From: Myceligenerans pegani
GTDB lineage: Bacteria > Actinomycetota > Actinomycetes > Actinomycetales > Cellulomonadaceae
Assembly: GCF_014892515.1 (NCBI RefSeq)
Contig: NZ_JADBGR010000019.1
Span: 33,230-97,229 of the forward strand
DNA: 64,000 nucleotides
Direction of reading: 5' to 3'
The notes beneath the pieces are model-generated. The model saw only the letters and a list, made by a program, of their open reading frames with translations, was not told where the DNA came from and did no database searches. Positions 41,490 through 53,352 of this stretch are shown piece after piece. The translations under genes were made by a program, and so were the position numbers. Position 1 is the stretch's first letter. Each line of letters begins with the position of its first letter.

Positions 41490-42410
41490 GTGACTCCTCG
41501 CCCGGGACCTGCCGCGCGCCGCCTCCTCGCGGCGGCGACCGCCGTCGTGCTCGTGCTCGCACTGTCCGGATGCGTCCGGATGGGGCTGGAGCTGGAGCTC
41601 GCGCCCGACGACGTCGCCCGGCCGAACCTGGTCCTCGGCGTCGAGGACCAGGTCCTGGAGAACACCGGCCAGTCGGCCGAGGACTTCATCGACACCCTGG
41701 TCCGGGGCAACGATCCCGCCGACACCGCCGTCCGCGTCGAGGACTGGGCGGCCGACGGGTACACGGGCGAGCGCTACGTCTACGGCGAGGTGAACATCTC
41801 CCAGGTCGGCACGGCCACGAGCCTGCCCGTGAACGTCGTGCGCGAGGGCGACGAGTACGTGGTGTCGGGCACGCTCGATCTCACCGCCGACGGGCTCGGG
41901 CTGGGCGGGGGCGCGTCGCTCGACGACATCGACGTCGTCGTCGACATCGCGTTCCCCGGCCCGGTCACCGAGTCGAACGGCACGATCGACGGGAACACCG
42001 TGCGCTGGGACCCGCCGCTGGGCGGGCAGTACGAGATCCACGCCCGCGGCTCCGCCGTCGTGCCGGCGGAGCCGTCCCCGACGCCGGAGACCGGCACGGC
42101 GGCGCCGGGCGGCGCGACGACGTCCGGCGTCCCCGACTGGCTGGTCCTCCTCATCGGCGCCGGCGGGCTCGTGATCCTGCTCCTCCTGGCGATCGTGGTG
42201 TGGCAGGCGCTCCGCGTCCGCAGGAACGACGACGGCGCGCACCCGGGCGGGCCCGCACCCTACCCGCAACAGCCGCCCTACTCGCCGTACCCGTATCCGC
42301 CGCAGGGCTACGCGCAGCCAGGACCTCCGCCGCCTGGACAGGCCCACCCCCAGCAGAACGTCACGCCGCCTAGGCCGAACCGGCCGCCCAGCATTCCGCC
42401 GCAGGGCTGA
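41490..42410 (+). CDS. LppM-type lipoprotein with C-terminal TM helix and Pro-rich tail
   Basis: A 306-residue protein. The lipoprotein signal is [19 protein letters not shown] with the lipobox LSGC (Cys at ~27), followed by [13 protein letters not shown], as in the LppM domain of mycobacteria. The extracytoplasmic beta-rich domain spans ~28-195. A Pro/Thr linker leads to a TM helix (~215-235, [20 protein letters not shown]), and a cytoplasmic tail rich in Pro/Tyr/Gln follows ([20 protein letters not shown]). It is therefore anchored twice. The start is GTG at 41490. It is divergent from clpB and convergent with argS. Function is unknown beyond envelope localisation. Confidence 0.82.
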
Positions 42411-42491
42411 GTCCGTGAAGGTCATGGGCCACCCGCGAACAGCCTTCCTGATCCACCGACGCGTGTCGGATTCGACCTTCGACTGCAGTTC

Positions 42492-44315
42492 TCACATGCG
42501 TTCGGGTGCGGTGATGCCGAGGAGTCCGAGGCCGGTGTCGAGGGTTCGGCCGGTGAGGTCGCACAGGGCGAGGCGGTTGGTGCGGGTGGTGGGGTTGGGG
42601 GCGGTCAGGACGGGGCACGTGTCGTAGAACTTGGTGTAGGCGGTCGCGACGGCGTAGAGGTAGCCGCACAGGCGGTGGGGTTCGAGGGTGTCGGCCACGT
42701 CGCGCAGGGCTTGGTCGAACTCGTCCAGGGCGAGTGCGAGGGCACGCTCGGCGGGTTCGAGGGGCGCGGTCACGTCCACACCGGCGAGCATGCCCGGCTC
42801 GCCGGCGTCGGGTCCGGCTGCGGAGGTCGCAGCGGTGCCGGTCGCCGTGGTGTCGGGTGGTGTCTGTTCGGCTTTGCGGAGGATGGAGCGGATGCGGGCG
42901 TGGGCGTATTGGAGGTAGACGCCGGTGTTGCCGGTGAAGGAGACCATCTGGGCCGGGTCGTACACGTAGTCCTTGGTGCGCGTGTTCGACAGGTCGGCGT
43001 ACTTGACCGCCGCGATCCCGGCGGCGTTCGCGATCGCGTCCAACTCTTCAGCGTCCAGGCCGGTGTCCCGTTCGGCCAGGATCGCATGCGCGCGCCCGAC
43101 CGCTTCGTCCAAGAGATCGGTCAAGCGCACAGTGTCCCCGGAGCGGGTCTTGAAGGGGCGTCCGTCGGTGCCCAGCACGGTCCCGAACGCCACATGCCGG
43201 GCATGCACGCTCTCGGGTAGCCAGCCGGCGCGGCGTGCGGTGTCGAACACCAAGCGGAAGTGCAGCGCCTGGCGGGCGTCGACCACGTACAGGATCCGGT
43301 CGGCCCGATACTCGTCCACGCGCAGGCGGATGGTGGCCAGGTCGGTGGCGGCGTACCCGTACCCGCCGTCTCGTTTGCGCACGATCAACGGCACCGGGTC
43401 TCCGTCGGCGTTGACCACGCCGTCGGTGAAGGTGACCATCGCGCCGTCGGACTCGATCGCGATACCGGCTTCGGTCAGGGCCTCGACGATGCCGGGCAGG
43501 GCGGGGTTGTAGCGCGATTCCCCGTCGAAGTTGTCGTGGTCGAGCTGGATGTTCAGCCGCTGGTAGATGGCCTCGAACGCGGTCTCGGACTCCGCGACCA
43601 GGTCCCGCCACGTGGCCACCGTCGCCTCATCCCCGGCTTGGAGGGCCACCACGCGGGAACGGGCGCGGTCGGCGAAGGCGGGGTCGGCCTCGAACTCCTT
43701 GCGCGCGGCCTTGTACAAGCCGTCCAGCGCGTCCATGGTTTCGGCGCCCCGGCCGCGCCAGGCCGCGTCGGGGTGTTCGTCCAGGTATTGGATGAGCATG
43801 CCGAACTGGGTGCCCCAGTCCCCGATGTGATTCTGCCGGATCACTCCTGCGCCGAGGTGGTCGAAGACGCGGGCCAGGGTGTCACCGATGATCGTGGAGC
43901 GCAGATGGCCCACGTGCATCTGCTTGGCCACGTTCGGCGCCGAGTAGTCCACCACCACCCGCTCACCGGTCCGCGACGTGCTCACGCCGAGACGGTCATC
44001 AGCGAGACGCGCGGCCACGTTCGACCAGATCATCTGGTCCGGAACCGTGAGGTTCAAGAACCCCGGACCCGACACCTCGGCGTCGATCTTCGGGCTCTCG
44101 CCTTCTGCGACGTGGGTGACGACGTCGGCGGCGATGTCCCGGGGAGCCCGGTGGGCCTTCTTCGCCACGGCCAAGGTGGCGTTGGACTGGAAGTCCGCGC
44201 GGTCGGATCGTCGGACCACCGGGTCGGCGCCGGCCAGCTCAGCCGGCAGCACCTCGGTCAGGGCAGCCTGAACGGCTGCTTCCACCTGGTCCTTGATCGC
44301 GACAACGTCAGTCAC
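42492..44315 (-). CDS. argS: Arginyl-tRNA synthetase, E. coli-like type
   Basis: A 607-residue class I aaRS charging tRNA-Arg. The HIGH-type motif is YSAPNVAKQMHVGHLRSTII, with HIGDWGTQFGMLIQYLDEHP next to it; the C-terminal anticodon-binding domain ends CDLTGRTLDTGLGLLGITAP. KMSKS is replaced by GRPFKTRSGD, as usual for ArgRS. The YSAPNVAK form resembles proteobacterial ArgRS rather than the VEFVSANPTGP form common in actinobacteria, so a second argS may exist elsewhere. The GTG at 44315 is preferred, because GAGAGG lies 8 bp upstream; an in-frame ATG at 44330 has no ribosome site. Divergent from cysS across 464 bp. Confidence 0.93.
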   Translation of the reverse strand: MTDVVAIKDQVEAAVQAALTEVLPAELAGADPVVRRSDRADFQSNATLAVAKKAHRAPRDIAADVVTHVAEGESPKIDAEVSGPGFLNLTVPDQMIWSNVAARLADDRLGVSTSRTGERVVVDYSAPNVAKQMHVGHLRSTIIGDTLARVFDHLGAGVIRQNHIGDWGTQFGMLIQYLDEHPDAAWRGRGAETMDALDGLYKAARKEFEADPAFADRARSRVVALQAGDEATVATWRDLVAESETAFEAIYQRLNIQLDHDNFDGESRYNPALPGIVEALTEAGIAIESDGAMVTFTDGVVNADGDPVPLIVRKRDGGYGYAATDLATIRLRVDEYRADRILYVVDARQALHFRLVFDTARRAGWLPESVHARHVAFGTVLGTDGRPFKTRSGDTVRLTDLLDEAVGRAHAILAERDTGLDAEELDAIANAAGIAAVKYADLSNTRTKDYVYDPAQMVSFTGNTGVYLQYAHARIRSILRKAEQTPPDTTATGTAATSAAGPDAGEPGMLAGVDVTAPLEPAERALALALDEFDQALRDVADTLEPHRLCGYLYAVATAYTKFYDTCPVLTAPNPTTRTNRLALCDLTGRTLDTGLGLLGITAPERM

Positions 44316-44330
44316 GCGGAAGCCTCTCAT

Positions 44331-44779
44331 CTGATAGGGAGACCCGCCCAGGCGGCGGGTCGGGGCAAGTCTACGAACGACCCGCCCGTCAGGACTGGTC
44401 AGAACGGATGCGCCGGGCGGGGAGCGCTTCGGAGCAAGTCCCTTCGACGTCCTGAGCGGACAACGTGAGTAGAGGTCACAGTGTCCCTGGAGACAGCCTG
44501 GAAGTGAATCGCACCGATAGCTGGTTCGGCGAGTCGGTCGGGGTGACTTGTGCGGCTAGTCACCTCGGCTGGTCGCCTGCGTCTTGGCCTCCCGCTGGAG
44601 CGACATTGGCCATAGCCTGCTGAGCGAGCGAGAGACCCGAGTCGTTGTGGGCCCGCTCCGAGCGGACGCGGCAGGGTGGCTCGTAGCGCAGGTCGCAGGG
44701 CCGTCACGTCACGGGTTGAACGCCGGCCATCTCGTCGTAGGTTCGCTGCACTCATATCGGACAGATCTGGAGAGTAGGC
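44331..44779. other. Intergenic region between argS and cysS
   Basis: Holds a GACCCGCC-CAGGC-GGCGGGTC hairpin (44341-44361) in the argS leader and the 175-bp promoter repeat R1 (44478-44652). A further ~125 bp before the cysS start shows no convincing ORF. GGAGAG lies 6 bp before the cysS ATG. Confidence 0.7.
44478..44652 (+). promoter_or_regulatory. Promoter repeat R1 (upstream of cysS)
   Basis: About 80 percent alike (by eye) to 48852-49027. Shared blocks: GGCGAGTCGGTCGG, the dyad GTGACT-N9-AGTCAC (44543-44548 / 44558-44563), a third half-site GGTCGC (44571-44576), and ATTGGCCATAGCCTGCTGAG with a likely -10 TAGCCT (44613-44618). The most conserved block is the dyad and the ATTGGCCATAGCCT segment, as expected for an operator plus promoter. 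Confidence 0.75.
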
Positions 44780-46207
44780 ATGGGGATTGCCCTGTACAAC
44801 ACGCTGACGAGGCGCGTGGAGCCGCTTGAACCGATGACGCCCGGGGTCGTGCGGATGTTCGTATGTGGCCCCACGGTGTACGACCTCGCTCATGTAGGGC
44901 ATGCCAAGACCTACACCCAGTTCGACTTTCTCGCTCGCTACCTGCGGCTTCGCGGCTTCAAGGTGACGTATGCGCAGAACATCACCGATATCGACGACAA
45001 GATCATCCGTCGCGCCCACGAGCTGGGGCGTGAGCCCCGTGATGTTGCCGCGGAATTCGAGGACGCCTACCGACAGGACATGTCGGCGCTCGGGAACACG
45101 GAGGTGGATGTCTACGCGCGTGCGCATGACCACATCGATGAGATCGTCGCTCAGGTGCGGGCGCTGGTCGATCGTGGGCATGCCTACCAGTTGGACGACG
45201 GGTGGTACTTCGACCTGTCCACGTTCCCGGGCTACGGCAAGCTCTCGGGGCGGACCGAGGCCGCCGAGGGCGACTCCGTGGCGCGGATCGACGAGAACGA
45301 CGCCAAGCGCAATCGTGGCGACTTCGCGTTGTGGAAAGCCCGGAAGCCGGGCGACCCGTCCTGGGACACATCGTTGGGACCGGGGCGGCCGGGGTGGCAC
45401 ATCGAGGACACCGCGATCACGGAGGCTCTTTTCGGTCCGCAGTATGACCTGCACGGCGGGGCGGTCGACCTGATCTTTCCCCACCACGAGGCGGAGATCG
45501 CCCAGATGGAAGCGGCCTCGGGCAAGGAGCCGCTGGTACGCCATTGGGTACACACCGGTCTGCTGCGCGTCGACGGCGCGAAGATGTCCAAGAGCTCGGG
45601 CAACTTCCTGACGGTTCGTGACGCTCTCGCGATGAGCGACTACCGGACCTTGCGGTACGCGTTCCTGTCCCAGCAGTACCGGTCATCGATGGAGCTGTCA
45701 GTGACCGCGCTGGAGCAGGCACGGAGTGCGCGTCGCAGGGTGGAGAACTTCGCCCGTCAGGTCGATCGGTCCGCGCAGGAAGCCTCGATGGCCGTGGATG
45801 CAGCGGAGGAGGCGTGGACCGAAATGCTTATGCGCCTGGACGACGACCTGGATACGCCGGCCGCGCTGGCTGTGCTGTTCGGCTACATCCGGGAACAGAA
45901 CCGCAGTGACCTGCAGCCAGGGCCGTCGGCGGGGCAGCTCCTTGACCGCGTGAACGAACTGTTCGACGTGTTCGATCTGGAGGTCCGGTCTGCGGATGAC
46001 GCCGAGATCGAGGCCGAGCTTGTGCGTCGCGCTGAGCTGCGCAAGGCGCGCGACTTCGCCGCTGCCGACCAGATCCGTGACACTTTGGCCAGCCGGGGGA
46101 TCGTGATCGAGGACACCGCTGACGGCACCCGCTGGTGGTTGGCCGACGACACGGACTCGGATGATGACCGTGACCAGGCAGCGCCGGGCGTTAGCGCTGA
46201 CGGCTGA
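44780..46207 (+). CDS. cysS: Cysteinyl-tRNA synthetase with altered zinc site
   Basis: A 475-residue class I aaRS. The HIGH motif is in FVCGPTVYDLAHVGHAKTYT and KMSKS is in VDGAKMSKSSGNFLTVRDAL. Zinc ligands by comparison with E. coli CysRS: Cys29, His235 and Glu239 (IFPHHEAEIAQMEAASGKEP) are present, but the fourth, normally Cys in GWHIEC, is Asp210 (PGWHIEDTAITEALFGPQYD). I recall this HIEDTAI form from archaeal-type CysRS. The C-terminal domain and the ARDFAAADQIRDTLASRG motif are normal, so it is a CysRS and not MshC. It lies downstream of promoter repeat R1 and ends at a strong terminator. It is probably an extra copy, since housekeeping cysS usually sits near ispDF. Confidence 0.9.
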   Translation: MGIALYNTLTRRVEPLEPMTPGVVRMFVCGPTVYDLAHVGHAKTYTQFDFLARYLRLRGFKVTYAQNITDIDDKIIRRAHELGREPRDVAAEFEDAYRQDMSALGNTEVDVYARAHDHIDEIVAQVRALVDRGHAYQLDDGWYFDLSTFPGYGKLSGRTEAAEGDSVARIDENDAKRNRGDFALWKARKPGDPSWDTSLGPGRPGWHIEDTAITEALFGPQYDLHGGAVDLIFPHHEAEIAQMEAASGKEPLVRHWVHTGLLRVDGAKMSKSSGNFLTVRDALAMSDYRTLRYAFLSQQYRSSMELSVTALEQARSARRRVENFARQVDRSAQEASMAVDAAEEAWTEMLMRLDDDLDTPAALAVLFGYIREQNRSDLQPGPSAGQLLDRVNELFDVFDLEVRSADDAEIEAELVRRAELRKARDFAAADQIRDTLASRGIVIEDTADGTRWWLADDTDSDDDRDQAAPGVSADG

Positions 46208-46226
46208 CTGGCAGCAAAGGCGAGCG

Positions 46227-46253
46227 CGGTGCCCAGGGGGATCCTGGGCACCG
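46227..46253 (+). terminator. Terminator between cysS and the C39-like gene
   Basis: Perfect 11-bp arms CGGTGCCCAGG (46227-46237) / CCTGGGCACCG (46243-46253), followed by TGCTTGCTTCG. It lies between convergent stops at 46207 and 46275 and may act both ways. Confidence 0.8.
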
Positions 46254-46274
46254 TGCTTGCTTCGTGCGTGCAGG

Positions 46275-47030
46275 TCAGGCCAGCTGGTGTTCCCGGACTG
46301 GGACGTCCACGACCGAGCGGACCGCGACTCGTGCTCGGCTTCCGACGACGTCCTGGAAGGGGTAGGGGTCGTACCCGAGGCCGAGACCGGCGACGGCGAT
46401 CTCGATCTCGCCGTCGACGGGGTGGTGCTCCTCGACGACCCAGGTGAGTTCCGCGTCGCCCTCCGGGGTGATGAGGTCGGCCCACTGGCGGGCCTTGTCA
46501 CACGCGAGGCCGTCCGGGAGCTTGATGCTCGCGTTGAGGGCAGTGATGGACCGCAACTCGCACCGGGCGTGCGGGTGGCGGGGTGCACCGACGGTGACGA
46601 CCAGCTGGTTGGTCGTCGGTCCGACGGCCTCGATCCGGGCGGACATGGACATGGGTGCCGGCATCGCGGCGAAGCACGCGGTCGTGTTGCACAGCAGCAG
46701 AGCCAGGTCCTGTGAGGTGAGGGCGGTCAGGCCGTGGCGGTCTCCGCCCCACTCGGCGCGCCACGGGTCGCCGACGAGGAAGGTGCCGTCCTCGTCGGCG
46801 TAGCCCACGACAGCCACGACGTGGCCTTCGCGGTCGACCTTGTGCACCAGGTCGTTGTCAGGCATCGGGTAGGCGACCCCGGGGTGGAGCCGGACGATCA
46901 CCGAGTACCCGGTGGCCAGGTGCTCCTTGAGGTTGGCGATGAACCGCGGCTGGAACGGGTCGTAGCTGCCAACCGGCAAGAGACCCGCGCCGTCCAGCGC
47001 GCCGGTGCTGATGTCACGGACGGTGAGCAT
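46275..47030 (-). CDS. C39/papain-like domain protein lacking the catalytic Cys half
   Basis: A 251-residue cytosolic protein. Residues ~38-95 match the second half of a C39-type papain fold: LATGYSVIVRLHPG, GHVVAVVGYADEDGTFLVGD (catalytic-type His) and DPW. The usual N-terminal QxxCGPA helix with the catalytic Cys is absent, so it is truncated or non-catalytic. Residues ~120-250 are a beta-sandwich-like region (NQLVVTVGAPRHPHARCELR; EHHPVDGEIEIAVAGLG). AAGGAGAGG lies 8 bp upstream of the ATG. It starts 30 bp after the propeller gene and in the same frame, separated by TGA at 47061-47063. The function is unknown; the two genes form an operon. Confidence 0.65.
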   Translation of the reverse strand: MLTVRDISTGALDGAGLLPVGSYDPFQPRFIANLKEHLATGYSVIVRLHPGVAYPMPDNDLVHKVDREGHVVAVVGYADEDGTFLVGDPWRAEWGGDRHGLTALTSQDLALLLCNTTACFAAMPAPMSMSARIEAVGPTTNQLVVTVGAPRHPHARCELRSITALNASIKLPDGLACDKARQWADLITPEGDAELTWVVEEHHPVDGEIEIAVAGLGLGYDPYPFQDVVGSRARVAVRSVVDVPVREHQLA

Positions 47031-47060
47031 TGCGCATCCTCTCCTTCTTCGTGTTGCCGG

Positions 47061-48776
47061 TCATTGCGTCGAGGCGTCGTGGTGACCGCCCTTCTCCCAC
47101 TCCTCGATGACGCTGACCACGTCCGACTGTGTCGGCGTCCGGGAGAGCATCTCCGGGAGTGGAAGCGAGGACGAGGCGATGATCCGGGCAGATCCGCCTC
47201 GCCAGATGTGGTGGGGGTCGATGCCCTGCCCGCGCATGTACTGCGCGGCATCCTCGGCCAGGCCGGGGTCGACGGACTTGCCGTGCGCGGCGAGGACGGC
47301 TGTGAGCACAGGGCCGCCGGAGTTCGCGCGAGAGGTGGCGGGTGCGGGCAACTCGGCGTCGCCGAGCGCCCGGGCCTGCGCGACTTCCGGGCGCCGCATG
47401 GAGCCGGTGTCGATGACGAAGCTCATGACCCGCCGATTGGTGCCGGAGTGCAGGCGACCGTAGATCGCCACCTCGGCGTAGCGCTTGTCTTGGTCGACCT
47501 CGCCCGCCCAGTAGTACGAACGCGGGCCGCTGCGCAGCATCCGCTCGTGGCCGGTGCGTCCGAAGTGCCGCAGGTCCAGGTCGATCTCGTCGGGGTGCTC
47601 GTCCGTCTGGTACTCCACACGGAGGAAGTCGCGGTCGGTGCCCATCACGTACTCGGACTCGATACTTGGTGAGGCGCCGGCATCGGTCAGGGAGACCGAG
47701 ACGAGATAGCCGTCCGCAGGTGGGTCACCGCCGCAGATGAGGATCCGCTCGGCGTCGGCGACCACAGGTGCGGAGTACGCGTTGAAGCCGATCGGGACTT
47801 CCCAGCTCACCGAGAGGTCGGTGAGACTGCGCTGGCTCAGCCAGGCGCCGCCGTGTACGTAGACGCTCCCGTCGTGGATCGCCGGTGTGGACCAGATCCC
47901 GAGCGGATCCACCTGTGTCGAGCGAATCACGTTCCCATCGATCGCCCCCAGGAGATGCAGAGCACCTTCGAGTGTCCCAACCGCCACGAGGCCGTCCGCG
48001 ACACACGGTGCCGACCGCACCGCGACGCCACGGTCTGGGAGTTCGGTCTTCCACCTGATGGTTCCCGCCTCGAGGTCGACCGCTACGACGTGACCATCGC
48101 TCGTTCCCGCCACCACCAGGCCGTTTGCCGTGTCCAGCGCCGGGCCGGCCGTGTCCGAGGCGACGACGTAGTCCCGGCCGATCGGCGTAGCCCAGGAGAC
48201 TCGGCTCGACGACCTCTCGAAACACACGAGGGCCAAGGACGCACCGTCACCGCGACGTAGGCCGGCGAGCGAGTAGAACCTCCCGTCGGAGACCACCGGC
48301 TTGCCGAAGAAGATCGATCCTGGGAGCACGGCAAGCTCGGTGACACCGTCGACGCCGAACTCAAGGATGTGATTCCCGATGAAGGTGATGTACCGGCTGC
48401 CCACCGCTACCGCCGTCGACCGGATGCGTGACCCCAGGTCAGCTTCCCAGCGAACTCGGCCATCGCGGGGGTCGAGCGCCGAGTACTTGGTGAACGAGTT
48501 CGGAACGCACAACTCGTCGGTATCGGCGTTGTAGAGGCTCTGCGCGTACGACCCCATCGGGAAGGAACGCCGCCAACGTTCCTCATGGCCGTCGGTCGTC
48601 AGCCGATAGTCGAACGTCTTGGCCTGATCGTCGTAGCCGACAGCAAGAATCCCGTGCGGCGTCACCAGGGGCACACGACCAACGCCGTGCAGCGACGTCG
48701 CTGCCAGAACAGTTGCACGAACGTCGCAATCCTTGCGGGGCGTCGCTCGCCGCCAGAGCTTGTGATCGGACCTCAT
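47061..48776 (-). CDS. PQQ-type beta-propeller repeat protein, cytosolic
   Basis: A 571-residue protein with about seven WD/PQQ-like blades at ~25-360, recognisable from YSALDPRDGRVRWEADLG, LVVAGTSDGHVVAVDLEAGT, LVAVGTLEGALHLLGAIDG and SVYVHGGAWLSQRSLTDLSV. No signal peptide is present. Residues ~370-455 are beta-rich (LRVEYQTDEHPDEIDLDLRH). The C-terminus contains ANSGGPVLTAVLAAHGKSVD, reminiscent of the N-terminal helix of a C39 fold but without its Cys. A perfect anti-SD match AAGGAGGTGATC precedes the ATG. It is divergent from the XRE regulator and is the first gene of the propeller-C39 operon. Ligand and role are unknown. Confidence 0.75.
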   Translation of the reverse strand: MRSDHKLWRRATPRKDCDVRATVLAATSLHGVGRVPLVTPHGILAVGYDDQAKTFDYRLTTDGHEERWRRSFPMGSYAQSLYNADTDELCVPNSFTKYSALDPRDGRVRWEADLGSRIRSTAVAVGSRYITFIGNHILEFGVDGVTELAVLPGSIFFGKPVVSDGRFYSLAGLRRGDGASLALVCFERSSSRVSWATPIGRDYVVASDTAGPALDTANGLVVAGTSDGHVVAVDLEAGTIRWKTELPDRGVAVRSAPCVADGLVAVGTLEGALHLLGAIDGNVIRSTQVDPLGIWSTPAIHDGSVYVHGGAWLSQRSLTDLSVSWEVPIGFNAYSAPVVADAERILICGGDPPADGYLVSVSLTDAGASPSIESEYVMGTDRDFLRVEYQTDEHPDEIDLDLRHFGRTGHERMLRSGPRSYYWAGEVDQDKRYAEVAIYGRLHSGTNRRVMSFVIDTGSMRRPEVAQARALGDAELPAPATSRANSGGPVLTAVLAAHGKSVDPGLAEDAAQYMRGQGIDPHHIWRGGSARIIASSSLPLPEMLSRTPTQSDVVSVIEEWEKGGHHDASTQ

Positions 48777-48851
48777 GCGATCACCTCCTTACTCACGTGT
48801 GGTGCGGTACGCCCGGCCGTGGCTCTCGTGGCCCGAAGCGCTTGGGACCAC

Positions 48852-49027
48852 CACGTTTCCCCTGGTGACGTGCCGGAAGTGAGCCGCGCGGGTAGCCGGT
48901 CCGGCGAGTCGGTCGGAGTGACTCGTGCTGCTAGTCACCTCTGCTGGTCACTTGCCTCGGAGCCTCCCGTCGGAGTGGCATTGGCCATAGCCTGCTGAGC
49001 GAAGGAGAGACCAGCGTCGTTGGGGGC
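48852..49027 (+). promoter_or_regulatory. Promoter repeat R2 (upstream of the XRE regulator)
   Basis: Second copy of R1 in the same orientation. Dyad GTGACT (48918-48923) / AGTCAC (48933-48938), third half-site GGTCAC (48946-48951), and ATTGGCCATAGCCTGCTGAG with -10 TAGCCT (48988-48993). The regulator ATG is 40 bp past the -10. The dyad is probably the regulator's own binding site. Confidence 0.75.
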
Positions 49028-49032
49028 CTGCC

Positions 49033-49410
49033 ATGAATGTCGACCCGTACGGGAACGAGCCGATCAGTCCGGCGGTCTGGGAGCGCGCCGAGATGCGCAC
49101 CGCCCTGGCCCGCCGCGACCTGAAGCAGGTCTACGAACTGTTGCAGCGTGCCGGCATCTCCCAGCGTTCGATCGCGCGCCGCACGATGCAGAGCCCGTCG
49201 GAGGTGTACGAGATTCTCCGCGGCCGACAGGTCCTGGCGCACGACGTGCTGGTCCGTATCGCCGACGGGCTCGGAGTGCCGCGCGGATACATGGGAGTGG
49301 CTTATGACGAGTCCACCGAATCGGTGCTCGACATGGCGGTGGCGAACGTCTCGACCGATCCTTCTGAGCGTGAAGAGGCTCGCCGGATGTGTCACACGCC
49401 GCGAACATGA
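49033..49410 (+). CDS. XRE-family regulator, N-terminal (DNA-binding) half; frameshifted
   Basis: 125 residues: NVDPYGNEPISPAVWERAEM, then an XRE-type HTH (ISQRSIARRTMQSPSEVYEI, ~50-70) and VRIADGLGVPRGYMGVAYDE. In related actinobacterial proteins, as I remember them, this runs directly into a TPR region beginning RRLLSHAA. Here the frame reads RRMCHTPRT and stops at 49410, while the next frame continues as SHAANMTMEADVADVASWWQ. A single missing base near 49389 (ATG-TG-TCA for ATG-CTG-TCA) would restore one protein of about 460 residues. So this is either a true frameshift, a sequencing error, or a coupled two-protein version. Confidence 0.8.
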   Translation: MNVDPYGNEPISPAVWERAEMRTALARRDLKQVYELLQRAGISQRSIARRTMQSPSEVYEILRGRQVLAHDVLVRIADGLGVPRGYMGVAYDESTESVLDMAVANVSTDPSEREEARRMCHTPRT

Positions 49411-50405
49411 CCATGGAAGCTGACGTCGCCGACGTGGCCTCATGGTGGCAGCCGGTAGAACGGCAGACCGCCCCAGTGCCGACAAAGGTCGGAGCTGCCG
49501 ACGTCGTCCAGCTCAAGTCCTTGACCGCCACGATGCGCGCCGTCGACTACCAGTACGGCGGTGGAGCGTGCCGCGATGCGATCGCCGCCCAGGTGCGATG
49601 GGCGCAGCAGCTGCTCCTGGCCGACACCTCGGAGAAGAATCGTCACGACCTGCTTGTCGCCCTGGCTGATCTGCATAATCTCGCCGGGTGGACATCATTC
49701 GATACCGGGATGTTCACGGTGGCCAGGCGTCACTTCTCCCGCGCCCTGGAGCAGGCAAAGGCCGTGGGCGATCAGTCGTTGTCAGCAAACATCCTGTACC
49801 GGATGGGGCGCCTTCATCTGCATCGAGGACTCCCGCACGAGGCACTGAGATTCTTCCAGCTCGGACAGATCGCAGCGCAGGACTCCGGGTGCGGTGTGAC
49901 GACCTCGATGATCTGCGTCAACGAAGCCTGGGCATATGCGGCCCTGGGCGACCGCACTCAGATGGGCCGCTCCCTGAACCGCGCGAGAGTCGAATGGGAG
50001 CACGCCGACCGTGACCGCGCGGCAGCATGGGTGCAAGAGTTCGGCAGGTCCGACCTGCACCTCCACGCTGTGACGGGCGTCGTCCTCACCACAGGACCCG
50101 ACGTCCCCGCAGCAGACATGGAACAAGCCATCGGGCACATCACTCATGCTCTCGACCAGCGTGGCCCCGAGATGGCTCGCAGCCGAACCTTCGATCTCAC
50201 CGCCCTCGCGACAGCCCACCTGCGTACGGGAGACATCGACGAAGGACTACGTGCCGGCCAGGATGTCGTCGCAAGCGCCACAACAGTCCGCTCCGTTCGG
50301 ACGCTGGACAGATTCGAACCGCTCCAGACCGCACTGAACGACGTGCCGCAGAACGAAAACACAACGGCACTGCAGCGTCAGCTGAGCACGCTGCGAGGTG
50401 CCTAG
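49389..50405 (+). CDS. TPR half of the split XRE regulator
   Basis: 338 residues of tetratricopeptide-like helices: DYQYGGGACRDAIAAQVRWA, LVALADLHNLAGWTSFDTGM, ARRHFSRALEQAKAVGDQSL, LYRMGRLHLHRGLPHEALRF and GQIAAQDSGC. This is the sensor part of the actinobacterial HTH-TPR regulator family. It overlaps the HTH half by 22 bp in the other frame. If translated separately, GTG 49389 is the start, with GAAGAGG about 10 bp upstream permitting reinitiation. Alone it could not bind DNA. It shows no internal stop codons, so the break is recent or the two-part form is functional. Confidence 0.78.
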   Translation: MSHAANMTMEADVADVASWWQPVERQTAPVPTKVGAADVVQLKSLTATMRAVDYQYGGGACRDAIAAQVRWAQQLLLADTSEKNRHDLLVALADLHNLAGWTSFDTGMFTVARRHFSRALEQAKAVGDQSLSANILYRMGRLHLHRGLPHEALRFFQLGQIAAQDSGCGVTTSMICVNEAWAYAALGDRTQMGRSLNRARVEWEHADRDRAAAWVQEFGRSDLHLHAVTGVVLTTGPDVPAADMEQAIGHITHALDQRGPEMARSRTFDLTALATAHLRTGDIDEGLRAGQDVVASATTVRSVRTLDRFEPLQTALNDVPQNENTTALQRQLSTLRGA

Positions 50406-50850
50406 AAACGGCAGTCCCGAACGCTGCCCACGGCGAGAGGGCACGGCCGCTTCGACACACTCCGCGCCGAAGACCCACCGCGATGGCCCCGCCATGACTG
50501 ACCGGCTCGTAGCCCAACCAGGTCTGCTCAGCGCTGCACCCGCCCACCCATGGCGGCCGTGCCCCTACGGCCGCGGGCGCCCACGGCTCTCTCTGCTGAC
50601 TCGTCGCGACGTTGCGGCCTGCACGGATACGCGTGCAAGAGCTGACTCCCCGAGGCGCCCAGCCGCGCTAGGCACCGCGCCCGCCTCCCGTAGCGGGCCA
50701 CGCCTGCGACTCACATCGCGACAGAACTCCGATGGAGCCTGAGAACAGCCCCGCAGACGTCGGCCGGAAGGGATCGCCGTCTGCGGGATGCACCAACCAG
50801 GCCGAACGGTCTGATCCGCGACGTGACCCCGAACGCCGAGGGAGTCCCTC
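50406..50850. other. 445-bp non-coding stretch
   Basis: No gene supported. An ATG at 50496 opens 82 codons of Arg/Pro/Ala-rich sequence without ribosome site or family likeness, judged fortuitous. A strong hairpin lies at 50750-50787. GAGGGAG precedes the next gene. Confidence 0.6.
50750..50787 (+). terminator. Hairpin upstream of the resolvase-like gene
   Basis: Perfect 10-bp arms CCCGCAGACG (50750-50759) / CGTCTGCGGG (50778-50787) with an 18-nt loop. It is 345 bp past the regulator stop and 63 bp before the next ATG, so it may be a leader structure (attenuator) rather than the regulator's terminator. Confidence 0.5.
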
Positions 50851-51252
50851 ATGACGTCGACCACGCCCCGCCCGACCGCCGTCGGGTACGTGTCCGCGTC
50901 CGATCCGGAAGTCCTCGATGCGCAGCGTCACGCCGTCACGGAGTACGCGCGGGTCGAGGGGTTCGCGCTGGCGCAGATCGTCACGGACAGGTTCGACGGG
51001 TTCACGCTGAGCCAAGTCGTCCAGGCCGCCCGCCTGCACGAGGCGCGGCTGGTCATCGTTCCCGCCGACACCACCCTCGCGACGGCGCATGCCCGCCTGG
51101 TTCACGAACTCGAGCCCGACGGCGCGGCCTGCACCGTCATCGACGCCTCGGCCGCGGCCGCCGTCCAACCCCGGACCGACGCGGTGGCGCCACGTCTGAC
51201 CGACGCGCTCCGACCCCGCACCGCCCGACACGCAGCAAGGACGACGCAATGA
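50851..51252 (+). CDS. Resolvase N-terminal-like small protein
   Basis: 133 residues. The first ~95 residues follow the serine-recombinase N-terminal fold (TAVGYVSASDPEVLDAQRHA; VTEYARVEGFALAQIVTDRF; LHEARLVIVPADTTLATAHA). The expected Ser is in GYVSAS, but the Arg-rich active-site pattern (RVS, DR-SR) is not clear. The C-terminal recombinase HTH is missing, replaced by a Thr/Arg/Ala tail. It is therefore probably not an active recombinase. GAGGGAG precedes the ATG, and the stop overlaps the HAD start (ATGA), so both are translated together. The biological role is unknown. Confidence 0.6.
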   Translation: MTSTTPRPTAVGYVSASDPEVLDAQRHAVTEYARVEGFALAQIVTDRFDGFTLSQVVQAARLHEARLVIVPADTTLATAHARLVHELEPDGAACTVIDASAAAAVQPRTDAVAPRLTDALRPRTARHAARTTQ

Positions 51253-52127
51253 ACGCCACCCACACCATCCCGGTAACCACAGACCCGCCCACCACCGCAA
51301 TCACTGCCACGGCGGACGGGCCCATGCTCGTCGCGCTCGACGTCGACGGCACTCTCCTGCCCGAGGGCACGATCGACGTGCCGCCGGTCAACGCGGATGC
51401 CGTGCAGGACGTGATCGCCGCCGGCCATCATGTGGTCCTGTCCACCGGAAGGTCGCTGGTCGGGGTGATGCCGGTGGCCGCCAGCCTCGGGCTGACCAGC
51501 GGGTGGGTGGTCGCCTCCAACGGCGCGGTGACCGCACGCCTGACCCCGAACGCCCCAGGCGGCTACGAGATCGCCGACGCCTTCACCCTCGACGTGCCGC
51601 CCGTCGTCGCCCTCGTGCGCGAACTCATGGCCGAGACCCAGATCGCCGCCGAGGAGGTCGGCTACGGGTATCACGTCACCCGTGAGTTCGAGGCCGGGCT
51701 GCTCAACGGACGCCAGACCGTCGTCACCCACGACCGTCTCCCCGAGGCCACCCCGCGGCTCGTGCTGCACGCGCCCGGCGTTACCACTCTGCTGGGTCAC
51801 CTGCGCACACTCGACGTGACCGCTACTCCCGCAGGCGAGAACTGGATCGACCTGGCCGTAGGTCTGGTCTCGAAGGCGACGGCGCTCTACCGCATCCGGC
51901 GCCGCCTGGGCGTCCACCCCGACCGCACCCTCGCGATCGGAGACGGCGCCAACGATCTGCCGATGTTCAAATGGGCCGCCACCGCCATCGCCATGGGAGA
52001 CGCGCCCGCCGCCGTCCGCCTAGCCGCCGACGCGGTCACCGGCACCCTCCAACAACACGGCGCCGCCTCCATCCTCGACGCCATCGCCGCAGGCAAACCC
52101 CCCACCCCACCAGCCGGCTGCCACTGA
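51249..52127 (+). CDS. HAD-superfamily (Cof-like) phosphatase
   Basis: A 292-residue HAD hydrolase of the Cof/YidA subgroup. After a Thr/Pro-rich N-terminus of ~25 residues, motif I is MLVALDVDGTLLPEG, motif II is VVLSTGRSLVGVMP, the Lys of motif III is in GLVSKATALYRIRRRLGV, and motif IV is LAIGDGANDLPMFKWA. The C2-type cap lies between motifs II and III. Such enzymes dephosphorylate sugar or nucleotide phosphates; the specific substrate is unknown. Coupled by ATGA to the resolvase-like gene. It ends at a strong terminator that closes the accessory region. Confidence 0.88.
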   Translation: MNATHTIPVTTDPPTTAITATADGPMLVALDVDGTLLPEGTIDVPPVNADAVQDVIAAGHHVVLSTGRSLVGVMPVAASLGLTSGWVVASNGAVTARLTPNAPGGYEIADAFTLDVPPVVALVRELMAETQIAAEEVGYGYHVTREFEAGLLNGRQTVVTHDRLPEATPRLVLHAPGVTTLLGHLRTLDVTATPAGENWIDLAVGLVSKATALYRIRRRLGVHPDRTLAIGDGANDLPMFKWAATAIAMGDAPAAVRLAADAVTGTLQQHGAASILDAIAAGKPPTPPAGCH

Positions 52128-52209
52128 ACCGGCCACCACAGAACTTGCCGCCGGTGCACCGCCCCGCACCGGCCGCAGGGCCCGCCGCCGCCCGGACCAG
52201 CGGCGGGAA

Positions 52210-52240
52210 GCGGGCCGGGACCTCCACGGTCCCGGCCCGC
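52210..52240 (+). terminator. Terminator after the HAD gene
   Basis: Perfect 12-bp arms GCGGGCCGGGAC (52210-52221) / GTCCCGGCCCGC (52229-52240), 7-nt loop, 83 bp past the HAD stop. Confidence 0.75.
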
Positions 52241-52324
52241 CATATGCGGCCCGAGATAGTCCGGTGAGTCGTGCACCATCACAAACGCCGCCGGAGATCC
52301 GCCCGTCGGACCCGTGCGACGCTC

Positions 52325-52368: not shown

Positions 52369-53352
52369 ATGAGTTCCTGGTCCCCCGACGTCCTCGGTGA
52401 CGGCTTCGAGGCGCGCTCGCTGTCCGTGCCCGCTCCCCGGCGTTCCCGCGGCGTGCGACGCGGCAGTGGCGCCTCGTCGCCGGACGACCGCGCGGCGACG
52501 CTCGTCCGGCACGTGGCCTCGACCGGCACCGACACGGCCAGGCCCGCCGTCCTGTACGTGCACGGCTTCGTCGACTACTTCTTCCAGACCCATGTCGCGG
52601 AACACCTGGCGGCCGCCGGTTACCCGTTCTACGCCGTCGACCTGCGCGGATACGGGCGTTCGGTGCGCGAGCACGACGACCGGACCATCGTTCCGTTCGT
52701 GCACGAGCACGCCGCCGACCTCGACGCCGCGACGGACGCCGTCCGCGCGGAGGGGCACGAGCGGATCGTCATCCTGGGGCACTCCACCGGTGGCCTCATC
52801 GCCTCGCTGTGGGCGGCCGCGCGGCCGGGCGTCGTCGTCGGCCTCGTGCTCAACTCGCCGTGGGTCGACCTGAACCGGGGCTGGTTCGACCGCGTCGTCA
52901 CCACGCAGCTCATGCGCGGGATCGGCGCCGCGGCGCCGCGGGCCCGGGTCAGCGCGCTGGGAGGCGACTACGCGAACGCCATGCACCGCGACCACGGCGG
53001 CGAATGGGACTTCGACCTGCGGTGGAAGCCCGACGCCGCGTTCCCGGTGCGGGCGGGATGGCTGAACTCGGTGCGTCGCGCCCACGCACGCCTCGCGCGC
53101 GGGTTGTCGCTGGACATACCGGTGCTGGTCACGACGTCGGACCGGACGACGCCGGGCCGGACCCGCGAGGAGAACACCGGGACCGACGCCGTGCTCGACG
53201 TGCGACACATGTGGAAGCGCGCGCCGAAGCTCGGCTCCGACGTCCAGGTCGAGATCATCCCCGGCGGCTCCCACGACCTCGCCCTGTCCCCCGCCCCGGC
53301 CCGCGATCTGTACCTCAAGACGATCACGGACTGGCTCGACACGCGATTCTGA
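52369..53352 (+). CDS. Alpha/beta-fold hydrolase (monoacylglycerol lipase-like)
   Basis: A 327-residue serine hydrolase. The oxyanion HG is in VLYVHGFVDYFFQTHVAEHL, the nucleophile is Ser139 in VILGHSTGGLIASLWA, and the His is in IIPGGSHDLALSPAPA; DLRGYGRSVREHDDRT is typical of the hydrolase_4 subgroup. No signal peptide. It probably acts on lipid or carboxyl esters. The ATG at 52369 follows CGGAG. It is convergent with the giant membrane-protein gene. Confidence 0.85.
   Translation: MSSWSPDVLGDGFEARSLSVPAPRRSRGVRRGSGASSPDDRAATLVRHVASTGTDTARPAVLYVHGFVDYFFQTHVAEHLAAAGYPFYAVDLRGYGRSVREHDDRTIVPFVHEHAADLDAATDAVRAEGHERIVILGHSTGGLIASLWAAARPGVVVGLVLNSPWVDLNRGWFDRVVTTQLMRGIGAAAPRARVSALGGDYANAMHRDHGGEWDFDLRWKPDAAFPVRAGWLNSVRRAHARLARGLSLDIPVLVTTSDRTTPGRTREENTGTDAVLDVRHMWKRAPKLGSDVQVEIIPGGSHDLALSPAPARDLYLKTITDWLDTRF

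Follow-up and report, generated by a model that had tools for sequence, protein, structure and literature searches.

A composite insertion in Myceligenerans pegani carries an accessory cysteinyl-tRNA synthetase gene behind a repeat of a regulator's upstream region

We analysed a stretch of 64,000 nucleotides (nt) from Myceligenerans pegani (contig NZ_JADBGR010000019.1 of assembly GCF_014892515.1, positions 33,230 to 97,229; hereafter the window), in which an insertion of about 9.9 kb, the island, encodes a second cysteinyl-tRNA synthetase, cysS2, together with a putative regulator and several companion genes (Table 1). The island lies between a gene for an LppM-like lipoprotein, which ends at 42410, and an alpha/beta-hydrolase gene, which starts at 52369. 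The two flanking genes are directly adjacent in all three other genomes of the genus that were compared (G163, G164 and G165; the host genome is G000), where the empty site is seen. Homology of the left flank to these genomes stops at 42410 at the furthest, and that of the right flank begins at 52316-52324. The G+C content of the island is 0.68, compared to 0.73 and 0.76 in the flanks; the longest direct repeat found near its ends is 10 bp. The region is a composite insertion of three modules and not a single cassette: module A is argS2; module B consists of cysS2 and, facing it, the C39-like and propeller genes; and module C comprises a regulator of the NsdA type, a gene resembling the N-terminal domain of resolvases, and a Cof-type HAD gene.

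Table 1. Features of the island, in window coordinates
Feature	Positions	Strand	Basis
Insertion (island)	42411..52315, right end approximate	.	ends of flank homology; G+C
argS2, accessory arginyl-tRNA synthetase (module A)	42492..44330	(-)	TIGR00456 469 bits, cut-off 262
R1, ahead of cysS2; putative copy of the region upstream of the regulator	44485..44656	(+)	81% identical to R2
GACT-N8-TAGTC dyad in R1, predicted operator	44545..44561	(+)	motif search
cysS2, accessory cysteinyl-tRNA synthetase (module B)	44780..46207	(+)	TIGR00435 439 bits, cut-off 340
C39-like protein (module B)	46275..47030	(-)	PF13529 25.6 vs 24 bits
PQQ/BamB-like beta-propeller protein with tail of ~200 residues (module B)	47061..48776	(-)	PQQ_2 53 vs 28 bits
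R2, regulator upstream region	48860..49031	(+)	aligns with upstream region of G189 orthologue
GACT-N8-TAGTC dyad in R2, predicted operator	48920..48936	(+)	motif search
HTH reading frame, split NsdA-type regulator (module C)	49033..49410	(+)	HTH_31 32 bits
TPR reading frame, split NsdA-type regulator (module C)	49389..50405	(+)	NF053720 238 bits, cut-off 75
Resolvase-N-like small protein (module C)	50851..51252	(+)	PF00239 14.6 bits, below cut-off
Cof-type HAD hydrolase (module C)	51249..52127	(+)	PF08282 122 bits

Much of a preliminary description of this DNA, made from the letters alone, is borne out. The accessory island that it proposed agrees with the joined flanks, and its divergent argS and cysS genes are confirmed by their coordinates and by the TIGR00456 and TIGR00435 profiles. 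They are of unusual subtypes, as it had said: argS2 and the other argS of the host, on contig C65, share 28% identity, and cysS2 shares 41% with the other cysS (C45). The presence of these copies, and of mshC (C76), answers the objection that the host might have no others. The propeller and C39-like pair passes the PQQ_2 and PF13529 profiles, the latter barely. The R1 and R2 repeats are real, and cysS2 and the regulator are both preceded by this repeat with its dyad. The regulator with helix-turn-helix (HTH) and tetratricopeptide-repeat (TPR) domains has both domains, but it is not the single gene described: here they occupy two overlapping open reading frames (ORFs) in different frames.

The product of cysS2 (CysRS2) retains the catalytic, DALR and C-terminal domains of a cysteinyl-tRNA synthetase (CysRS), with the anticodon-binding domains kept, and has the signature motifs HVGH (the HIGH motif) and KMSKS. 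It is 38% identical to the host mshC product over residues 20-373 and fails the MshC profile TIGR03447, with 290 bits against a cut-off of 485. The zinc ligands of the Escherichia coli enzyme are Cys, Cys, His and Glu, Cys209 being among them. CysRS2 has Asp at the position of Cys209 (1li5) and keeps the other three ligands; the host cysS and mshC products both have Cys there. The protein database holds at least 2448 homologues of cysS2 at E <= 1e-120. Among the 120 listed, Asp follows GWH[IL]E in 119 (the remaining one being unreadable by the motif), and the second signature reads KMSKS in 61, KMAKS in 46 and KMGKS in 7, none being found in 6. The closest of these 120 matches are 82-87% identical over nearly the full length (two short entries score higher), the organisms named being Antribacter, Promicromonospora and Myceligenerans; the next, 60-73% identical, include Kitasatospora, Saccharothrix and Streptomyces. 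cysS2 is a member of a large CysRS family of actinomycetes in which Asp takes the place of a zinc-ligand Cys. That Asp is common to 119 of the 120 homologues listed lowers the claim of ordinary zinc chemistry, and leaves that of a CysRS fold as it was. In family-wide searches (221 genomes, one per species), cysS2 was found in five genomes at E <= 1e-100, the window's own counted. A class-level search at E <= 1e-130 gave the window's own genome only (1/394), and a Kitasatospora cysS2, used as query, was matched in 4 of the 239 genomes in the family of G590. Genes for tyrS and proS lie near cysS2 in G184 and Antribacter, and at a locus in another genome (L100, G714:C216) cysS2 is joined within 16 kb by a further CysRS/MshC-like gene, by gltX and by an ATP-grasp gene.

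The C39-like and propeller genes face cysS2 in the window, and the arrangement recurs in Antribacter soli (L008, L017) and Promicromonospora sp. Populi (L014), and all named carriers of the three-gene cassette are Promicromonosporaceae. A full-length propeller is present in 3/221 family genomes, own counted (G052 has a partial match, 28%), and is absent from two of the five genomes with cysS2 (G184 and G187). In the protein database six propellers, again counting our own, are 73-100% identical over at least 93% of the length, and the other 29 matches are partial. All five propellers on contigs larger than 90 kb share the contig with the C39-like gene and cysS2, as judged by sequence for three (window, L008, L014) and by contigs of equal size for two (216250 and 134912); the sixth, outside this count, sits on a 10-kb contig. 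Between the window and Populi, nonsynonymous over synonymous divergence (dN/dS, NG86) is 0.093/0.780 for cysS2, 0.098/0.474 for the C39-like gene and 0.109/0.643 for the propeller gene; by this comparison, all three genes are under purifying selection. The C39-like protein matches PF13529 at profile positions 88-143 only, the His/Asp end, and the Cys end is unmatched. In its predicted structure (mean pLDDT 75) a C-terminal beta-sandwich is modelled with confidence, whereas roughly residues 50-120 form a weak region. Against the Protein Data Bank (PDB) its best TM is 0.31, with no C39 peptidase among the 50 matches listed, and six distant relatives are 35-42% identical in sequence. The propeller model (mean pLDDT 62) matches BamB structures, the best at E 1.1e-15, with residues 366-571 mostly below pLDDT 50. 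As to a possible C39 domain split between the two proteins, joining the propeller tail to the C39-like protein did not extend the PF13529 match, and PDB matches of the joined sequence were confined to the His region of cathepsins and no better than E 0.25. A PADLOC scan of eight island proteins gave no match for cysS2, the C39-like protein or the propeller and a weak one for the HTH ORF only, and a literature search found no paper joining CysRS, a beta-propeller and C39.

R1 and R2, each 172 nt long and 81% identical to the other, flank module B as direct repeats. Each contains the dyad GACT-N8-TAGTC, which occurs twice in the window (chance expectation 0.06; two were reached in 1 of 100 shuffles), 96 nt ahead of the HTH ORF and 218 nt ahead of cysS2. 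The dyad and the CATTGGCCATAGCCTGCTGAGCGA stretch are unchanged between the repeats, other positions differ, and both elements recur, in part, upstream of the regulator's orthologue in G189. R2 aligned with that upstream region with a score of 78 (50 shuffles: mean 28, maximum 40). A DNA search of the 221 family genomes with the R sequence returned R1, R2 and 29-nt matches in G098 and G137. The dyad was found four times in 717 kb (34 loci plus the window, with some overlap), namely in R1, in R2 and 79 and 87 nt ahead of two G189 regulators; 796 kb from 40 control loci (seven genomes, positions chosen by the analyst) held two copies, plus one in the opposite orientation. Because R2 and the region ahead of the regulator orthologue can be aligned, dyad included, R1 is best read as a captured copy. 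A block GTCTG..GATGC, seen by eye approximately 100 nt upstream of cysS2 at four other loci, is unrecognisable in the window, which also suggests that R2 is ancestral and R1 captured.

The ATG at 49407 in the TPR ORF overlaps the stop of the HTH ORF (ATGA), so translational coupling is possible. The homologue in G189 is a single ORF of 456 amino acids, to which the HTH part is 73% and the TPR part 64% identical. With dN/dS against G189 of 0.156/1.026 for the HTH ORF and 0.315/1.563 for the TPR ORF, both pieces look conserved. Around the G189 gene are found an FxLD methyltransferase (444 bits against a cut-off of 320), a LanB-like protein (TIGR03891, 66 bits against 48) and a precursor-like ORF carrying FELD. 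(Genes at such loci were called with a simple script, and names of neighbours without a profile match were read by eye.) The host has three LanB genes (PF04738), on C88 (L086), C11 (L087) and C44 (L088), none being on the window contig C6; queries for the resolvase-like gene, the HAD gene and the FxLD methyltransferase match at all three loci, the HAD match at L087 being a short ORF. L087 also holds a MobF relaxase (NCBIfam), L088 has a similar-looking one by eye, and a precursor-like ORF at L088 carries FDLD. On host contig C56 (L071, G000:C56:28000-42000) a paralogue of the regulator (55%) neighbours an APH-like gene, an FxLD methyltransferase (366 bits), a resolvase-like gene, serS (TIGR00414, 386 bits) and a radical SAM gene (MoaA-like, below cut-offs). 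The island has no LanB gene and, among its scanned proteins, no TIGR04364 (FxLD methyltransferase) match; a simple filter for FxLD-type precursor ORFs found none in the island, L071, L086 or L087 and one each in L070 and L088. At the 40 control loci the resolvase-like query matched 0 times, the NsdA query 0 times and the HAD query once; at the 25 other loci with an accessory aminoacyl-tRNA synthetase (aaRS) gene the counts were 0, 0 and 3, with LanB at 0. HAD homologues lie near cysS2 at L060 and L061, with a weak one in G191, and also near LanB loci. Homologues of module C thus go with lanthipeptide loci and not with accessory-aaRS loci generally, and the combination found in the window is peculiar to this genome.

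In the preliminary description argS, cysS, the propeller and C39-like genes and the regulator formed one cassette and regulon. That view does not hold for argS2, which is present in 17 of the 221 family genomes (18 places, window's own included) and adjoins cysS2 in none but the window's own; a distance of 300 kb separates the two genes in G191, where both occur. Nor does it hold for the regulator, a general companionship of which, with the resolvase-like gene, to accessory aaRS genes is rejected by its absence from all 25 other loci. Scattering of the genes, which would have spoken against a common system, is thus found for argS and the regulator, and not for cysS2, the C39-like gene and the propeller gene, whose order is kept in three genomes. 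We read argS2 as an independent passenger. The surroundings of argS2 or cysS2 (26 loci, each about 20 kb, range 14.5-20 kb) were searched with nine aaRS queries. Another aaRS gene was found at seven, compared to one of the 40 control loci; these seven include a housekeeping-type argS (L044), sister loci (L056, L058) and the window itself, so the independent cases are fewer. At L044 (G165:C1), the argS matching the housekeeping-type gene of the host lies at a distance of 1.7 kb from argS2. At L056 (G165) and L058 (G164), of the same genus, argS2 is followed by serS and gltX, the serS of L056 being broken into two ORFs. A DUF4291 homologue is present within the 20-kb stretch at 7 of the 25 accessory-aaRS loci (six argS2, one cysS2; L045, L048, L050, L051, L053, L056 and L061) and at 0/40 controls. 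The window contains no tRNA gene, and an RNA element was rejected, as an Rfam search gave nothing at the gathering level, with one miRNA match of 22 bits against a cut-off of 58. A phage origin was rejected, as a Kitasatospora cysS2, the sole query scanned, had no relative in viral contigs. A plasmid origin was likewise rejected, as plasmid-record matches of cysS2 (623 records) and argS2 (106) are all below 60% identity, the closest for argS2 being from Nocardia (59%). Klebsiella accounts for 503 of the 623 records with a cysS-like match, and some records are chromosome-sized.

We propose, with a probability of roughly 0.5, that cysS2 lies in this composite insertion behind a copy of the regulator's upstream region, is switched by the NsdA-type regulator and supplies a back-up CysRS. 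The HTH protein would bind the dyads and regulate its own gene, and R1, as a derived copy of R2, would drive cysS2, which would probably bring that gene, too, under the control of the regulator. CysRS2 is predicted to charge tRNA-Cys when the housekeeping enzyme is inhibited or in short supply, a switchable back-up CysRS being its most likely role. The C39-like protein and the propeller may be partners of CysRS2, perhaps as a scaffold, or as a sensor in which the C39-like part is non-proteolytic. We read the resolvase-like and HAD genes as remains of a lanthipeptide-locus setting, the probable source of the regulator. Several results weigh against this proposal. Over the whole host genome the dyad has 14 hits (13 places), compared to 24 for a reversed control; without genome-wide enrichment, the motif alone proves little. 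At the 11 host places besides R1 and R2, extended similarity was clear at one (score 52 vs 35 for its shuffles) and marginal at another (36 vs 35), both inside called genes, and one further place is intergenic and has none (32 vs 39). For the regions ahead of the second G189 regulator and of the host C56 paralogue, the alignment with R2 was not significant (36 against a shuffled maximum of 38, and 26 against 53, respectively). No sigma-70 promoter consensus and no terminator consensus were found in 44300-49100. The regulator, split over two frames, may not work as its homologues do; with a zinc-ligand Cys replaced by Asp, normal charging by CysRS2 is not to be assumed; and R1 could be a footprint of recombination, since the two direct repeats lie on either side of module B.

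This last point is central to the most credible, though still unlikely, alternative, in which unrelated horizontally acquired genes have piled up, the repeat is a footprint of recombination and the modules are functionally unlinked. The occurrence of argS2 and of the regulator kit independently of cysS2, the position of the repeats, the split regulator and the unenriched dyad are all consistent with it. Against it speak the conserved order of module B and the purifying selection on its genes, as do the dyad and the CATTGGCCATAGCCTGCTGAGCGA stretch, which stand unchanged in both R copies and recur in part upstream of the G189 orthologue. It is rather improbable that Cys-tRNA from CysRS2, instead of serving translation, is used to modify a peptide or small molecule by LanB- or PEARL-like chemistry. 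In favour of this, aminoacyl-tRNA is used by LanB and PEARL enzymes, the regulator homologue and its kit belong to FxLD-lanthipeptide loci encoding LanB-like enzymes, the host has three LanB genes, and serS adjoins the NsdA-like/FxLD-methyltransferase locus on C56. Against these stand the location of all three PF04738 matches away from the window contig, an island in which the simple filter found no FxLD-type precursor ORF, the anticodon-binding domains kept in cysS2 and the absence of LanB matches from the 25 other accessory-aaRS loci.

We give little credence to a reading in which CysRS2, the propeller and the C39-like protein constitute an undescribed translation-protection module. The propeller tail and the C39-like half would together restore a papain-like domain, non-proteolytic and acting as sensor of a cysteine-derived or peptide signal. 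A CysRS with an altered zinc site would take over the making of Cys-tRNA, controlled by a regulator that a lanthipeptide locus had supplied. It is still less probable that CysRS2, as a resistant copy, protects against one particular CysRS inhibitor or cysteine analogue that the host itself or its competitors produce. We know of no described natural CysRS inhibitor, which counts against it, and no biosynthetic genes for such a compound were recognised among the scanned proteins of the island; the Asp that 119 of the 120 homologues listed have at a zinc-ligand position is in its favour, as is resistance conferred by duplicated aaRSs in other cases (PMC9437257). The least credible possibility is a defence or toxin-antitoxin-like system, with the propeller and the C39-like protein acting and cysS2 protecting. 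Module B is indeed a small sporadic cassette with a lineage-restricted pair, but none of its three proteins has a PADLOC match and the recognised C39-like part is without the Cys end of the profile.

The locus presents a duplicated aaRS with a private predicted control site, a constant partner pair and a diagnostic Asp. If the proposed wiring is true, promoter duplication has placed an accessory aaRS under a regulator from a peptide-antibiotic locus. Two unstudied protein families, represented by the propeller and by the half-C39 protein, are defined here as well. Among known systems, BamB and other PQQ-type propellers have a predicted fold like that of the window propeller, which differs by its long C-terminal tail; to our knowledge, an actinobacterium offers no clear outer-membrane setting for a BamB-type protein. 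C39 peptidases (PF13529) are alike at the His/Asp end, the Cys end being unmatched in the C39-like protein. NsdA-family regulators (NF053720) share the TPR part, whereas here HTH and TPR lie in two frames. FxLD-lanthipeptide loci (TIGR04364) contain homologues of the regulator, resolvase-like and HAD genes, together with the LanB, methyltransferase and precursor that were not found in the island. The mycothiol ligase MshC has the same fold as CysRS2, which falls below the MshC cut-off, has C-terminal domains that MshC is without, and coexists with a separate mshC in the host. Duplicated or auxiliary aaRSs are alike in that a second aaRS gene of divergent type accompanies the housekeeping copy. 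According to PMC9437257, such duplicates are common and mostly unexplained, with precedents in stress and antibiotic resistance; its examples include the two TrpRSs of Streptomyces coelicolor, the two SerRSs of an albomycin producer and the paired IleRSs of Bacilli. The present case differs from these by the zinc-ligand Asp, by an upstream region apparently copied from a nearby regulator, and by its fixed propeller and C39-like partners.

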